Below, piece by piece: positions 6,316 to 14,805 of a stretch of 14,969 bases of DNA. The stretch lies in the NCBI GenBank assembly GCA_938001995.1, contig CALLAV010000028.1, positions 1 through 14,969 on the forward strand. Direction: 5' to 3'. Position 1 is the first letter of the stretch. Every line of letters begins with the position of its first letter. The notes under the pieces were generated by a model. The model ran no database searches, was not told the DNA's origin, and saw nothing but the letters and a program-made list of their open reading frames with translations. Position numbers and translations under genes: made by a program. Source of the stretch: an uncultured Amylibacter sp. GTDB taxonomy: Bacteria > Pseudomonadota > Alphaproteobacteria > Rhodobacterales > Rhodobacteraceae.

Positions 6316-7395
6316 ATGTTAGAGATTTTGATCCTCTCAATTCTGGGATTCGCTGGAACCGCCATTGGTGGGCTTGTGTCCTCGGATGATGATGCGTCAA
6401 GCAGCAACGAGTCAGACGGTGACGCCAGTGGCGATACCGAAAATGACCTGCTGTTGGGGACAGGCGAAGATAATATCTTGAACGGTACGGATGATGACGA
6501 TCAGATTTTCCTCGACGGGGGGGATGATGAATCTGACGGCGGCAGTGGCGATGACAGCATCGCTGGCGGAGACGGTGTAGATCAGATCAATGGCGGTGAC
6601 GATGATGATACGCTGTTTGGCAACGCGGGCGACGATATTCTGGATGGTGAAGACGGCGACGACACATTGTACGGTGGTTGGGGCGAAGACGACCTTGAAG
6701 GCGGCGATGGCGATGACACGCTTTATGGCGGCGAAATGGACGATGTTCTGACCGATTGGGACGGCAGCAACGAACTGTATGGCGGCGACGGCGATGATAC
6801 ATTGCAAGGCGGGTTCGACGTTGATGACACAAGCGTTCTGCACGGTGACGCAGGCGACGATACGATCACTGACGGCGACGCGGACGCCAGCGTTTATGGC
6901 GGTACGGGTGATGATGTAATTACGACAGGCCACGGCGACAGCGAAGTATATGGCGGCGACGGCGCAGACATAATTAGCACAGGCATCGACACGGATGTGA
7001 TCCACGGCGATGCAGGCGATGATGTGATCACAGCCATTGGAACAGATACCGAAGGTGAGGTAGACGAAGCCTATGGCGGTGAAGGAAATGATCAGTTGAA
7101 CATTCGCGGCGCGACCGAAGCATACGGCGGTGAAGGAGAAGATACATTCACCAGCTACTACAATACTTGGGTTGAAGAGGCGCCAACGGTGATGGATTTT
7201 GATGCATCAGAAGACCAGCTTGAGGTGGATATCCAGTCGCATGAAGGGCGGCAAGATTTGGATGACTTCGACATAAAGGTCGAAGACTTTGAAGACGGTA
7301 GTGGCGCGTCCATCTATGTAGACGGAGTCGAAGTGATGCGGGTTCCGGGCGCACAAGGTTTGAACCTAGCAGATGTGCAACTGAACCTCGTTTAA
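6316..7395 (+). CDS. RTX-type calcium-binding repeat protein with N-terminal hydrophobic segment
   Basis: A 359-residue, extremely aspartate- and glycine-rich protein. Residues 3-21 are hydrophobic (ILILSILGFAGTAIGGLV region), followed at once by an acidic, serine-rich stretch. From about 44 to 278 run many GGxGxDxLx nonapeptides, such as GGDGDDTLYGG (129-139), which in RTX proteins coil into a calcium-filled parallel beta-roll. Residues 289-359 form a non-repetitive C-terminal domain (TVMDFDASEDQLEVDI region) like those closing many roseobacter RTX proteins. RTX proteins normally leave the cell through type I secretion using a C-terminal signal; no ABC, membrane-fusion or TolC-like gene lies in this window. 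The ATG at 6316 has AAGGA seven bases upstream. No enzyme domain is visible, so a structural, adhesive or calcium-buffering surface role is only a guess. It overlaps the stop of the converging EamA gene. Confidence 0.88.
   Translation: MLEILILSILGFAGTAIGGLVSSDDDASSSNESDGDASGDTENDLLLGTGEDNILNGTDDDDQIFLDGGDDESDGGSGDDSIAGGDGVDQINGGDDDDTLFGNAGDDILDGEDGDDTLYGGWGEDDLEGGDGDDTLYGGEMDDVLTDWDGSNELYGGDGDDTLQGGFDVDDTSVLHGDAGDDTITDGDADASVYGGTGDDVITTGHGDSEVYGGDGADIISTGIDTDVIHGDAGDDVITAIGTDTEGEVDEAYGGEGNDQLNIRGATEAYGGEGEDTFTSYYNTWVEEAPTVMDFDASEDQLEVDIQSHEGRQDLDDFDIKVEDFEDGSGASIYVDGVEVMRVPGAQGLNLADVQLNLV
6445..7149 (+). repeat. RTX nonapeptide repeat tract
   Basis: This is the coding tract for residues of about 44-278. 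At DNA level it shows as recurring GGCGGCGACGGCGATGA-like units of 27 bases and variants, interrupted by irregular units around residues 143-150 and 166-176. The units are degenerate at third positions, so the array is old rather than recently expanded. Confidence 0.85.
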
Positions 7396-10196: not shown

Positions 10197-11717
10197 TTAG
10201 CGTGCGGTCAGTACGATTTCGATCCAACCGCTTTCGGTTGCATCCGAAAAAGGTTCCGCACTCACAAGCCCGTTGGCAGAGACCTGTGTGCCGCTGAATT
10301 TGCCGTTTGCGATCAAGCTACGGGCTACGGACAAGGCGCGGTTTTGGCTGATGAACCATGCTTCCTCGGAATTGCCAGTGCCATAGCTGTCCACGCGGAT
10401 CATCCAATCGATGCCTTCTGGCACGCGTGAAACGGTGTCTTTCAAGATTGCAGCGATTTCGTTGAGCTTGATGCCGTCGCTCTCTTGCAGCTTGGCGGAG
10501 TTCTTCGCGAAAATCTGTGACGCGGGGATCAGAATGCGATCTGTAGATGTTGATGTGTCAGCGCTGGGTGCAGATGCCAGGATGAAGTCGCGCATTTGTG
10601 TATTCAACCGTGCGACGATCGCCGCGCCTTGCTCAGAACGTGTGGCTTGATCAGCGCGCAAGGTAGATTGCGACGTGTCAAAGGCCGTTTTGGCTCGATT
10701 GACGTCGGCTTGCAGGTCGGACAGGGTGTTCGCTGCCGTGGCTTTTTGTGCGGTGAAATCTTGCATGGTCAAGGATTCATTCTGCAAGATCGCTTGCTGG
10801 GCGTCCAACTCATCTTGCGCCACATCCAGTTCGCCTTGAATTTCGGCAATCAAAGCGTTGCGCGTGTCTATGGCCGCTTTGCGTCTGGCTTGATGCTCTT
10901 TAAAGGCGGCGTCAGCGGCTGCAAATTTCTCATATGCGCTGGTTTCGGCTTGTTTGGCATTTGCCAATTGCTCGTCTGCTTTCAATAGGCGTTCGCCCAC
11001 TTCGATTTGACGTTTGCGGGTTGCCGCAAGCGCGTCTTTGGCTGCGAGTTCTGACTTCTTTGCGTTTTCGGCTTGCGAGACCGCGTCTTTGAAGAAATCC
11101 GTTTCGATGTCGCCATTGTCATCGCCATCGGAAATTACGGCCTGAGCGGATTTTACGGCTTCGACCAAAACTTCGGCGGCGCTAAAGGCGGCTTGCGCTG
11201 CGGCTGCTGCGTTTTTTAATTGTTCGACTGTGGAGCGCAGTTTTGCGTGCTCTTCTTTCATCGCCTTAATGTCGGCTTGCAACGTTTCAGAAGAAGAAAT
11301 GACGGTGTTTAGGTTCTGCTGGCTTTGCAGCAGTGCATTGGACAGCTCTTCGCCTTTGGGGTCTTCGTCAGATGTGTCCACTTGGGAGAGGCGTTTTTTG
11401 GCTTCTGCCACCTTTAGAACGGCGCTGGATAGACCCTGTTTTGCTGCGTCAACTTTGGCCTGTTGGGCATCGACTGTTTCCAAAAGCGCCGTGTTTTTTT
11501 CTTCAAAAGCGGCTTGCGCGGCAATGGCGTCATCCAAGGCGTCGCGCTTGCTTTGCCAGTCAGCAACAAGCGCGTTGTATTCGGCAATTGGGGCAGGTGT
11601 GAGGCTGATTGATTGTGCAGCAGCGCTTTGAGGGTAGGACGCTGAAAGGAGCAGGGCACAAGTTAGTGCGGGGATGGAGAAAAACGGGTTGATTGATTTA
11701 CTGAAACGACGTGCCAC
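10197..11717 (-). CDS. Exported coiled-coil protein with OmpA/MotB-like C-terminal domain
   Basis: This 506-residue protein has a signal peptide (MARRFSK, hydrophobic core, predicted cut near SAAA-QS at 34/35). Residues of about 45-390 are almost entirely Ala/Glu/Lys/Gln heptad-like sequence, so a long periplasmic coiled coil is expected. Residues 393-506 resemble a divergent OmpA_C/MotB peptidoglycan-binding domain: an IPASQIFAKNSAKL strand-helix start, then VDSYG near 442-446 and SQNRALSVARSL (457-468), where Arg460 matches the diaminopimelate-contacting arginine of the family. The usual GHTD and NRR motifs are altered, so wall binding is likely but unproven. The start is GTG at 11717, with GGTGGAA upstream; there is no nearby in-frame ATG. 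Sixty-two bases separate it from the CaiB/BaiF gene with no clear terminator. I do not recognise a named family. Confidence 0.8.
   Translation of the reverse strand: MARRFSKSINPFFSIPALTCALLLSASYPQSAAAQSISLTPAPIAEYNALVADWQSKRDALDDAIAAQAAFEEKNTALLETVDAQQAKVDAAKQGLSSAVLKVAEAKKRLSQVDTSDEDPKGEELSNALLQSQQNLNTVISSSETLQADIKAMKEEHAKLRSTVEQLKNAAAAAQAAFSAAEVLVEAVKSAQAVISDGDDNGDIETDFFKDAVSQAENAKKSELAAKDALAATRKRQIEVGERLLKADEQLANAKQAETSAYEKFAAADAAFKEHQARRKAAIDTRNALIAEIQGELDVAQDELDAQQAILQNESLTMQDFTAQKATAANTLSDLQADVNRAKTAFDTSQSTLRADQATRSEQGAAIVARLNTQMRDFILASAPSADTSTSTDRILIPASQIFAKNSAKLQESDGIKLNEIAAILKDTVSRVPEGIDWMIRVDSYGTGNSEEAWFISQNRALSVARSLIANGKFSGTQVSANGLVSAEPFSDATESGWIEIVLTAR
11094..11129 (-). other. EF-hand-like acidic loop inside the coiled coil
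   Basis: Residues 197-208 read DGDDNGDIETDF. Asp, Asp, Asn, Gly and Ile sit at positions 1, 3, 5, 6 and 8 of a calcium loop, but position 12 is Phe instead of Glu or Asp. It breaks the heptad pattern between two helical stretches. Calcium binding is inference; a simple acidic hinge is the alternative. Confidence 0.35.
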
Positions 11718-12139: not shown

Positions 12140-13237
12140 ATGATCACTAGATGTTTGATTGCGGCAGGGATTTCGCTTGTTTTGGGGGCAAGCGCGGCTG
12201 TGGCACAGACTTGCGGTGGGAACTATACTGTGAAGGGCGGGGATTCCTTGTCTGTTATCGCAGATTCTTTGTACAAGGATGCGAAAAAGTGGACTGCCAT
12301 CCATCAGGGTAATGTCGCCACTATTGGTAGCAATCCAAACAGTATTCGCGTTGGCCAAACATTGCGCCTGACCTGTATCGGTGGCCTTCCCACTGGATTA
12401 GAAGGTGGCACGGTTCAATCAACCGTTGCGTCGGCAAACCCGGCGGTGCAAACATCCTCAACCGCGTCTGCGGCGGTTCAGGTTGCTGCCGCAAATCGTA
12501 AATTGAAATTGTTGACGGCGGACGACAACGCGCCGTTCACGGACAGTTCGTTGCCAGGCGGTGGGTTGTTGACCGAGGTTGTGGATTCCGCGCTCAAAAG
12601 CAATTCGGACGTGAAAGACTTTGGTATTTATGTGGTGAATGACTGGTCCGCACATTTGGATCCGCTGATCACCGACGCGGTGTTCGATCTGGGCTTCCCT
12701 TGGTACAAGCCTGATTGCAAATTGCAGCCGGATACTTTCCGCTGTGCCGAGTTGAAATTCTCGGAGCCAATGTTTGAAATTTTGATGCTTTTGTATCAGC
12801 CGAAGGATCGTCAATTCGCGTTCAATACAGACACGGACATGCATGGTAAGTCTATTTGCCGACCCAAAGGTTGGTTGACCTATGATTTGGATGGTGCTGG
12901 GCGCAACTGGCTTGCCAACAATCTGGTAGAATTGAAGCAAGCGGATACAGTTGCGGATTGCTTTGAAATGATGCTGGCGGGTGATGTGGATTCTGTTTCC
13001 ATGGATGAATTCGTGGGGCGGACGTCGATCAAGGAGTTGGGGATCGGAGACAAAGTTCACACTGTCGACACGAAGCCGATTTCCATCCAAGGCATGCATG
13101 TTGTCGTTGGCAAAGAGCATCCGCAGGGCGATGAAATGCTGGCGTTGATTGATGCGGGCTTGGCCAACCTAAAGGCGTCTGGGGATTATCAACGGATTTT
13201 GGACACGCACATGTCGCGCATCTGGGCGGATTTCTAA
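12140..13237 (+). CDS. Exported LysM plus family-3-like solute-binding protein, paralog A
   Basis: A 365-residue protein. Residues 1-23 are a signal peptide with a predicted cut after AAVAQ or just before it. Residues 29-78 are a LysM domain (YTVKGGDSLSVIA opening, VGQTLRL end), which binds N-acetylglucosamine-containing glycans such as peptidoglycan. A Ser/Thr/Ala-rich linker (about 80-118) leads to a type 2 periplasmic-binding fold (121-365) resembling SBP_bac_3: LLTADDNAPFTD opens it, DLGFPWYKPDC lies where the family has its ligand loop, RCAELKFSEP matches the usual R-x5-6-FS-P segment, and AGDVDSVSMDE matches the late acidic segment. Mature cysteines are at 25, 79, 193, 202, 240 and 274. 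No permease or ATPase is nearby, so it may sense or hold a ligand rather than feed a transporter. A second copy follows 42 bases later. Confidence 0.87.
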   Translation: MITRCLIAAGISLVLGASAAVAQTCGGNYTVKGGDSLSVIADSLYKDAKKWTAIHQGNVATIGSNPNSIRVGQTLRLTCIGGLPTGLEGGTVQSTVASANPAVQTSSTASAAVQVAAANRKLKLLTADDNAPFTDSSLPGGGLLTEVVDSALKSNSDVKDFGIYVVNDWSAHLDPLITDAVFDLGFPWYKPDCKLQPDTFRCAELKFSEPMFEILMLLYQPKDRQFAFNTDTDMHGKSICRPKGWLTYDLDGAGRNWLANNLVELKQADTVADCFEMMLAGDVDSVSMDEFVGRTSIKELGIGDKVHTVDTKPISIQGMHVVVGKEHPQGDEMLALIDAGLANLKASGDYQRILDTHMSRIWADF

Positions 13238-13279
13238 GCAAGTGATGCGGTTGAGGAGAACGGCCTTCTGGGGGAAACT

Positions 13280-14377
13280 ATGCTACGAAAATTGATTTCA
13301 GCGGGACTGTTTTCGGCGATCGCAGGCGGCGCTATGGCGCAAGAGGATTGTGGTCGGACCTACGTTTTGCAGCAAGGGGACACGTTGTTGTCGATTGCGC
13401 AGGACTACTACGCGGAACGTAGCAAATGGTCGGTGATCTATTACGCAAACGAAACGGCTTTGGGCGGTAATCTGGTTGATTTGCCCGAAGGTGTGACGCT
13501 GAACATTCCGTGTGTGGATGGGGAAACGCTGAAACCGACGAACATCACGGAAACAGTTGCCGCACCAGAACCTGATCCCGAGCCTGAGCCGGAAGTGACC
13601 ATCGCACCGATTGAAACACCATTGTTGCAAGATGATGCAGATATCAAGCTGGTGACAGGGTCAAACTATGCGCCGTTTACGGATCAAGACTGGCCCAACA
13701 ACGGTATGATGTTCGAACTGGTGAATGCAGCATTCGAAGAAGCGCCGTCACCTCTGCCGTTTTCGATTGTTTGGGAGAATGACTGGTCCAAGCACTTGTT
13801 CCCAATGCTCGACAGCAAACAGGTTGATATGGGGTTCCCGTGGTATCGCCCGAATTGTGAGGCAGAGCCGCAGAATGAGCGCTGTGCGAACTTCCACTTT
13901 TCGAAGTCCGTATTTGATATTCTTGTCCTGATCTACGTGAATGCAGAGGCGCCGTTTGATTTCGACAAAGACGAAGACTTATTTGGCAAGACTATCTGTC
14001 GTGAAAAGGGGTATTTTACGCATGACCTAGATGGGCCAGACCGCCGTTGGGTCACAGATGGCAAGATCACGCTCGTGCGGGCTGACACGACGGATGACTG
14101 TTTCCGCATGGTGGCCGCGGGCGACGTGGACGCGGTGTCGGTGAACGAGTTTCTGGGAACGGGTAAGCTGAAAGAGTTGTCGTTGCAGGAAAAGGTTGTG
14201 GCGTTGGAACGGCCTGTGGGAACGCAAGGCCTGCATGTTGTGATTTCAAAGCGGCATTGGCGTGGGACAACGAACCTTTATCGGTTCAATGCAGGACTAG
14301 AGCAGCTGAAAAAGACTGATCGGTATGACGCAATTGTATCGCGCCATATGGAGCTGTTTCGGCAGCGCAATCGTTAA
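13280..14377 (+). CDS. Exported LysM plus family-3-like solute-binding protein, paralog B
   Basis: This is the second gene of the operon, also 365 residues. It has a signal peptide (1-20, AGGAMA-QE), a LysM domain (28-77, YVLQQGDTLLSIA opening), a proline/acid-rich linker (about 95-106) and the same solute-binding fold (122-365). By hand count about 80 of 180 residues are identical to paralog A over 121-300 with no gap. Cysteines are at 24, 78, 193, 202, 240 and 274, four of them at identical numbers. DMGFPWYRPNC, RCANFHFS and AGDVDAVSVNE repeat the signature segments, but Asn289 replaces Asp289 of paralog A. ATG 13280 follows GGGGGA. The linkers differ completely, so the copies are old and have diverged in tether and perhaps ligand. 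The stop overlaps that of the converging TerB-like gene. Confidence 0.87.
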   Translation: MLRKLISAGLFSAIAGGAMAQEDCGRTYVLQQGDTLLSIAQDYYAERSKWSVIYYANETALGGNLVDLPEGVTLNIPCVDGETLKPTNITETVAAPEPDPEPEPEVTIAPIETPLLQDDADIKLVTGSNYAPFTDQDWPNNGMMFELVNAAFEEAPSPLPFSIVWENDWSKHLFPMLDSKQVDMGFPWYRPNCEAEPQNERCANFHFSKSVFDILVLIYVNAEAPFDFDKDEDLFGKTICREKGYFTHDLDGPDRRWVTDGKITLVRADTTDDCFRMVAAGDVDAVSVNEFLGTGKLKELSLQEKVVALERPVGTQGLHVVISKRHWRGTTNLYRFNAGLEQLKKTDRYDAIVSRHMELFRQRNR

Positions 14378-14805
14378 GGTTTAAGGTGACGCGCTCGTGC
14401 GGCCCGTTCAATGGCCGCGCCTGCAAGGCGATCAATGTTCAAAACGTAGCGAATTTCTTCTAAGAAACGCAATTCGCCTTCGCGCAGGCGGCCATCCGCA
14501 GCAGCCACATCACAACACAGCGCATAGGCGGTTTCGTTGAATTTTTCTGGCATCGCTGCTCGAACAAGACCAAACAGCGCATCAAGCCCGTCTTCGTCTT
14601 CGAGGATATCAAACACCGTTTGCGAAATCAAAGTGATGCGATCCACGTCATAATCGGAAAATACGGGTAAGTGGCCCACGACCCGATCAATGGACAAGAG
14701 TTCGAGCGTACGCACCTGTGTGTCTGACACGGATGTCGATACCATCAACGCGATCAAAGCGTCCTGAAGGTTCCATGGGCTTTCGGTGATATCTTCTGCG
14801 GTCAT
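14374..14805 (-). CDS. TerB-like (tellurite resistance TerB family) protein
   Basis: A 143-residue, soluble, helical protein. Residues of about 92-118 (TAYALCCDVAAADGRLREGE region) carry the pattern of the TerB fold, with acidic residues Asp99, Asp104, Glu109 and Glu111 placed to bind metal as in TerB. The N-terminal half has a matching helix pair, ALIALMVSTSVSDTQVRTLE (17-36), so the protein looks like two related halves. TerB-family proteins occur with Ter stress systems, but also alone as housekeeping-like genes of unknown role; no terC, terD or other ter gene is here, so tellurite resistance should not be assumed. ATG 14805 has AAAGG about nine bases upstream. It is divergent from lysK, with a good candidate promoter, and its stop shares TTAA with paralog B. 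Confidence 0.8.
   Translation of the reverse strand: MTAEDITESPWNLQDALIALMVSTSVSDTQVRTLELLSIDRVVGHLPVFSDYDVDRITLISQTVFDILEDEDGLDALFGLVRAAMPEKFNETAYALCCDVAAADGRLREGELRFLEEIRYVLNIDRLAGAAIERAARARHLKP

Follow-up and report, generated by a model that had tools for sequence, protein, structure and literature searches.

In the window, the whole 14,969-nucleotide stretch of DNA analyzed here, two adjacent genes encode the paralogs A and B, each of which carries a signal peptide, a LysM domain, a linker and a domain of the SBP_3 solute-binding type. The two genes stay together in related genomes, where no permease gene adjoins them, and in a sister branch the LysM-SBP genes are linked to the gene of a membrane-spanning Ser/Thr kinase. 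On these grounds we propose, with a probability of roughly 45%, that A and B would act as wall-tethered receptors for envelope signaling and not as feeders of ABC transporters, by a working principle resembling that of the GlnH–PknG system.

Architecture of the tandem pair

Contig C28, from which the window comes, belongs to a 2.7 Mb genome that is 72% complete and divided into 352 contigs. Relatives of this genome carry names such as Rhodobacteraceae, Amylibacter and the like. The pair and its neighbors are laid out as follows.

12140..13237, + strand: paralog A, 365 aa, with signal peptide, LysM domain, linker and SBP_3-like domain
12140..12208, + strand: signal peptide of A, about residues 1–23, with a hydrophobic stretch at 5–23 and no lipobox; cleavage site placed by eye
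12224..12370, + strand: LysM domain of A, residues 29–77, with C25 and C79 on either side
12500..13213, + strand: SBP_3-like domain of A, about residues 121–358, with conserved R201, W188, C193/C202, C240/C274 and D284
13238..13279, + strand: gap of 42 bases between A and B
13280..14377, + strand: paralog B, 365 aa, with signal peptide, diverged LysM domain, Pro/Glu-rich linker and SBP_3-like domain
13352..13513, + strand: LysM region of B, about residues 25–78, with C24 and C78 on either side
13643..14347, + strand: SBP_3-like domain of B, residues 122–356, with the B-only block SK.HWRGT..LYRFNAGL
10197..11717, − strand: divergent neighbor, a secreted coiled-coil protein with an OmpA domain at its C-terminus
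14374..14805, − strand: convergent TerB-like neighbor, overlapping the end of B by 4 bases and lying outside the system

A and B are 37% identical over 361 positions, and both reading frames are intact. A preliminary description of this DNA had presented them as tandem paralogs 42 bases apart, and its coordinates, frames and gap all proved correct. The coiled-coil/OmpA gene is treated here as a neighbor, and we do not claim that it belongs to the system. Elsewhere in the window, positions 6316–7395 (+ strand) encode a 359-aa protein with a hydrophobic N-terminal stretch and nine matches to RTX calcium-binding repeats.

Against the Pfam LysM family (PF01476), window A reaches 20.1 bits, narrowly below the curated cut-off of 20.9, and window B has no match at E ≤ 1; a weak match of B to the NCBIfam LysM protein PRK11198 (19.8 bits) was found. 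Among orthologs, Pfam LysM matches at E ≤ 0.01 were obtained for 15 of 16 A proteins and 9 of 20 B proteins, and in the sister branch for 15 of 17. The LysM assignment made earlier draws support from the ortholog sets; in Pfam, the window proteins themselves fall just short (A) or go unmatched (B). When ortholog profiles were compared with solved structures, the best match of this part was the LysM domain of Kbp/YgaU (7pvc), a protein that lacks an SBP domain and carries a BON domain.

The SBP domain gives a similar picture. The scores of window A and B against SBP_bac_3 (PF00497), 15.8 and 22.2 bits, both lie below the cut-off of 26.4, and at E ≤ 0.01 the family is matched by 14 of 16 A orthologs and 18 of 20 B orthologs but by just 4 of 17 sister-branch proteins. 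The ortholog profiles A1, A2 and A3 reach solved amino-acid SBPs such as 4zv1 and 6svf. Since these profiles match despite the sub-cut-off scores in the window, we consider the LysM and SBP_3 domains to be real but diverged, in agreement with the order of signal peptide, LysM domain, linker and SBP_3-type domain first proposed for both proteins. Through the LysM domain, A and B would be held at the peptidoglycan. Relative to amino-acid SBPs of ABC transporters (AncQR 4zv1, 6svf and 4oen), the profile similarity lies in the second half of the domain and includes the aligned carboxylate-binding Arg. A and B differ from them in the N-terminal LysM domain, an enlarged loop with a Cys pair, the replacement of the lobe-2 Asp by Asn and the lack of an adjoining permease.

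In the profile alignment to 4zv1, position 289 matches the lobe-2 Asp, and R201 coincides with the Arg in the canonical motif R....FS. R201, which thus aligns with the carboxylate-binding Arg of amino-acid SBPs, is present in 80 of 82 A rows and 72 of 80 B rows. Position 289 is Asn in 81 of 82 A rows, window A being the sole A row with Asp, and in 74 of 80 B rows; in the sister branch, 9 of 12 first genes have Asp there and 9 of 12 second genes have Glu. The loop ahead of R201 is enlarged or rebuilt and holds a Cys pair. All groups show little or no variation at cysteines 193, 202, 240 and 274 or at D284 and P191, and the cysteine pattern suggests disulfides. The Arg, W188, D284 and several polar residues are retained across both branches. 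Among the canonical SBPs of the source genome, L006 was usable for residue comparison; L004, a permease ORF, and L005, which aligned poorly, were left out.

The conservation of R201 beside a changed position 289 points to a predicted carboxylate handle that has been retained while the rest of the site was altered. GlnH, in the available portion of one report, binds the amine and carboxyl groups of its ligand via Ser, Arg and Asp (PMC6069109). As Arg is the one member of this triad clearly retained in A and B, ligand binding could also have been lost. A has constant blocks of its own, CGG ahead of the LysM domain and GLP-GL-GG behind it, and B has an invariant polar block around HWRGT..LYR; these different invariant blocks indicate that A and B are not spare copies of each other.

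Conserved pairing and transporter context

A scan of named genome contigs confirmed 163 relatives, the best 80 of which were retained for locus counts. At 79 of these best 80 loci A is followed by B on the same strand, and at the other (L081) the contig stops after A. Measured from the stop codon of A to the called start of B, the gap has a median of 11 bases across the 79 pair loci; in two of these an open frame is shortened, that of A in L060 and that of B in L122. LysM-SBP matches were also found in 65 of 394 family genomes sampled independently. Twenty-seven of these were classed as A/B type (best E below 1e-78), and every one of the 27 has at least two neighboring matches. The neighborhood survey proposed in the preliminary description therefore finds A and B kept together in both collections. 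Three consecutive LysM-SBP genes, not two, occur in L181, L186 and L084, the extra gene of L084 being A-like and located upstream.

The pair is patchily distributed: 7 of 33 genomes searched in its own genus, the source genome included, contain it. In a class-wide sample, the sister-branch profile matches 51 of 385 genomes, 48 of them outside the family; among the best few candidates scored per genome, none of the matches listed for these 48 covers both the LysM and the SBP part.

In a quick maximum-likelihood tree of 89 proteins, the 28 A rows and the 27 B rows each form one clade (SH-aLRT 99 and 100), and the two clades are sisters (99). The first and second genes of the sister branch fall mostly into separate groups across a branch with a value of 98, with single-copy members scattered. 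Two clades for A and B and a separate tandem pair in the sister branch suggest that tandem duplication probably occurred twice; gene conversion may have acted within pairs.

Permeases were sought with a profile built from genes of the source genome, which recovered all 17 of its source genes. It detects no permease in the window. Across 81 loci, some with less than 10 kb fetched on a side, it finds a permease somewhere in 9 and as the immediate neighbor of the pair in none. ABC genes are thus no regular companions of the homologs, and the earlier claim that no transporter lies nearby holds for the window and, as regards adjoining genes, for all 81 loci. A role as the binding protein of an ABC importer encoded alongside was rejected, because the profile found no permease adjoining the pair across these loci.

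Six of the nine permease loci (L079, L095, L099, L110, L115 and L118) hold modABC (molybdate)-type sets as judged by gene clusters, and the set in L118 has its own ModA-type SBP. In L132, a set of SBP_bac_1, ATPase and permease genes begins 319 bases downstream of the pair on the same strand. In L068, a canonical SBP_3 gene is convergent with the pair, with ATPase and permease genes beyond it, and in L136 a permease lies about 3 kb upstream. Where ABC sets near the pair were examined (L118, L132 and L068), they have their own binding protein. Among the first 20 sister-branch regions, a permease occurs in five (L170, L172, L180, L182 and L184), none directly adjoining the SBP genes.

The source genome itself has 35 permease matches and three SBP_3 genes over the cut-off. 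That on C160 is followed directly by two permeases, and that on C93 shares its contig with one permease. In the same genome, L005 (C178:3241-4194) is a 362-aa frame in which several hydrophobic stretches interrupt the SBP_3 domain, an arrangement that resembles a ligand-gated channel of the bacterial glutamate-receptor type.

A sister-branch kinase and other neighbors

The kinase found near sister-branch LysM-SBP genes has 700–970 aa, a conserved tail of 200 aa and one hydrophobic segment. Intact HRD and DFG motifs and a single hydrophobic segment are present in all 10 sister-branch kinases considered, and a Pkinase domain in all 4 that were checked against Pfam. Among 40 sister-branch regions, which were chosen by hand and not at random, the kinase lies within 3 kb of the LysM-SBP genes on the same contig in 14 genomes (G283, G267, G191, G140, G280, G298, G185, G079, G197, G043, G296 and G160, together with G285 and G022, where the gap is 2.7–2.9 kb). 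In a fifteenth genome (G195), the SBP pair is directly preceded by an FHA–PP2C set, and the kinase occupies a different contig. Some kinase regions have a gene for a dynamin-like GTPase before the kinase and FHA and PP2C genes after it; among the 15 genomes, FHA occurs in 6 and PP2C in 8.

Searched for in 388 genomes of the family, the kinase tail turned up in 25, 19 of which also have LysM-SBP genes where 4.1 would be expected (hypergeometric P ~1e-11, a value that treats related genomes as independent and joins samples of 394 and 388). The other 6 kinase-tail genomes have no LysM-SBP match, and in the fetched cases the kinase stands without one, which indicates that the kinase does not need the SBPs; as the kinase set occurs without the pair, the latter looks like an add-on to an older kinase cassette. 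In six stretches (L199, L200, L201, L202, L203 and L205), the same kinase type is present, mostly with FHA and/or PP2C, and no LysM-SBP gene lies in the stretch.

None of the 27 A/B-type genomes, that of the window (72% complete) included, yielded the kinase tail. A kinase of the source genome was considered as a partner and rejected, its sole Pkinase match being of a different type and about 25% identical. The match in question, L190 (C85:7237-7980), is a frame of 763 aa that combines a kinase domain with a long tail and adjoins an OmpA-like gene.

In the A/B branch, the most frequent immediate neighbor is a single-pass membrane protein, here called T, whose gene precedes A on the same strand at 35 of the 81 loci (~43%). 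T is not present in the window, where the divergent coiled-coil/OmpA gene takes that place; relatives of this gene occupy the same position in L060, L120 and L134. T relatives occur in 54 of 388 genomes overall, some of them without A/B, and in 13 of the 27 A/B-type genomes, directly upstream of A in 9 of those. With a share of only 35 of 81 loci, T was rejected as a universal partner. Its extracytoplasmic part shows no homology to the kinase tail in hhalign (probability 0.2%). Of the T relatives scanned in genomes without A/B, two (L264:5129-6091 and L259:5237-6151) end in a LysM domain, the former within an accD-folC-rhodanese-zapE neighborhood, and the T that adjoins A/B stops at the point where the LysM domain of these relatives would start. 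The occurrence of T upstream of A and the kinase linkage of the sister branch are both new relative to the preliminary description.

In L063, ruvA/B lies on one side of the pair and ybgC-tolQ-tolR-...-tolB-pal-ybgF on the other, where 68 bases separate B and ybgC. The same ruv/Tol-Pal gene clusters, with the genes downstream of the pair, were recognized by clusters in L061, L064, L065, L072, L092 and L100, which brings this context to 7 of 81 loci. Contexts otherwise depend on lineage: the pair stands behind ruvA/B, in those seven loci also ahead of Tol-Pal genes, or among metabolic genes or others. Because contexts differ in this way between lineages, they indicate no single partner.

Possible functions and relation to known systems

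Pairing without a transporter and the adjacency of the sister-branch kinase make a wall sensor the more likely role than an importer component. The preliminary description had raised a sensor as an alternative to a transport component, and this idea gains from the conserved pairing, the lack of an adjoining permease and the kinase of the sister branch. In our proposed mechanism, the LysM domains would fix the exported proteins to the peptidoglycan, where A and B would work together without being redundant, perhaps as a heterodimer. The SBP domains would close on a small ligand bearing a carboxylate, plausibly an amino-acid-like compound or a fragment of the wall, and an inner-membrane protein would read the liganded, closed form. 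For the sister branch, the reader would most likely be the adjoining single-pass Ser/Thr kinase, acting via its extracytoplasmic tail and passing the signal to its FHA and PP2C partners. The A/B branch would have lost this kinase or never acquired it, and T would be a candidate reader there in about 43% of loci. As a tentative and more far-reaching version, the whole could be a wall-anchored two-receptor sensor, confined in our samples to one alphaproteobacterial family, that reads an amino-acid ligand or one derived from the wall, drives a kinase in the sister branch or a single-pass protein in the A/B branch and whose receptor pair arose twice.

The closest parallel to this signaling role comes from Mycobacterium and Corynebacterium, for which the available portions of two reports describe GlnH, an SBP, as controlling PknG through GlnX and, in Corynebacterium, as not serving glutamine uptake (PMC6069109, PMC9769921). 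As far as these portions go, the likeness lies in a family-3-like SBP that has no transport role and is encoded with a Ser/Thr kinase; an SBP gene of the sister branch directly adjoins the kinase gene. By the same sources, GlnH is a single lipoprotein without LysM, whereas the SBPs here are LysM-bearing and in tandem, and PknG is cytoplasmic and needs GlnX, whereas the sister-branch kinase itself spans the membrane. The A/B branch of the window departs further, with no linked kinase in any of 27 A/B-type genomes, and for this reason we do not claim membership of the GlnH–PknG system.

The main rival is that A and B regulate wall remodeling without any transmembrane signal: the SBP_3 domain would bind stem peptides and the LysM domain glycan, and the pair would steer or brake wall enzymes or Tol-Pal. 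We regard this as possible, if rather unlikely. It finds a precedent in MltF, whose N-terminal domain has an SBP_3 fold. In the available part of one report, this domain responds to muropeptides and switches its enzyme (PMC10746161), so that MltF, to that extent, resembles A and B as an extracytoplasmic regulatory domain reading wall fragments. Its enzyme, in the same source, is on the same chain, whereas A and B have a LysM domain and, in Pfam, no lytic transglycosylase or other enzyme domain. The location of the pair beside ybgC-tol-pal genes in L063 and related loci would suit such a regulator, as would the OmpA domain in the window's divergent neighbor, but the Tol-Pal context is limited to 7 of 81 loci and the kinase linkage of the sister branch would be left unexplained.

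It is improbable, in our judgment, that A and B are wall-held scavengers that buffer a substrate near the inner membrane for delivery to an unlinked ABC permease. Orphan SBPs are known to serve permeases encoded far away, and both the SBP_3 ancestry and the 35 permease matches of the source genome would allow such a role. No permease adjoins the pair in 81 loci, however, two of the three over-cut-off SBP_3 genes of the source genome (C160 and C93) have permeases on their own contigs, and a freely moving SBP would seem better suited to delivery than one bound to the wall. Least probable are structural wall proteins whose binding fold no longer takes a ligand. The Asn found at the canonical Asp position of almost every A/B row and the Cys-pair loop rebuilt ahead of the Arg would speak for this; the Arg, W188, D284 and several polar residues conserved in both branches and the invariant polar block in B speak against it.

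Each part of the arrangement is of a known kind. In the open-licence PMC literature, we found no paper on a LysM-SBP_3 protein, the tandem cassette, its stable pairing or its kinase linkage.

One report, in its available portion, names the activation of bacterial Ser/Thr kinases as an outstanding question (PMC6069109). If our reading is true, a peptidoglycan-tied receptor pair co-encoded with a membrane kinase would be a testable kinase input in a Gram-negative family, and it would represent a route from SBP to Ser/Thr kinase outside Actinobacteria that starts from a wall-fixed receptor. Solute-binding folds would then have been recruited from transport into wall-bound sensing, tandem duplication having probably occurred twice, and the branch of the window would show that such receptors can persist without the kinase of the sister branch.
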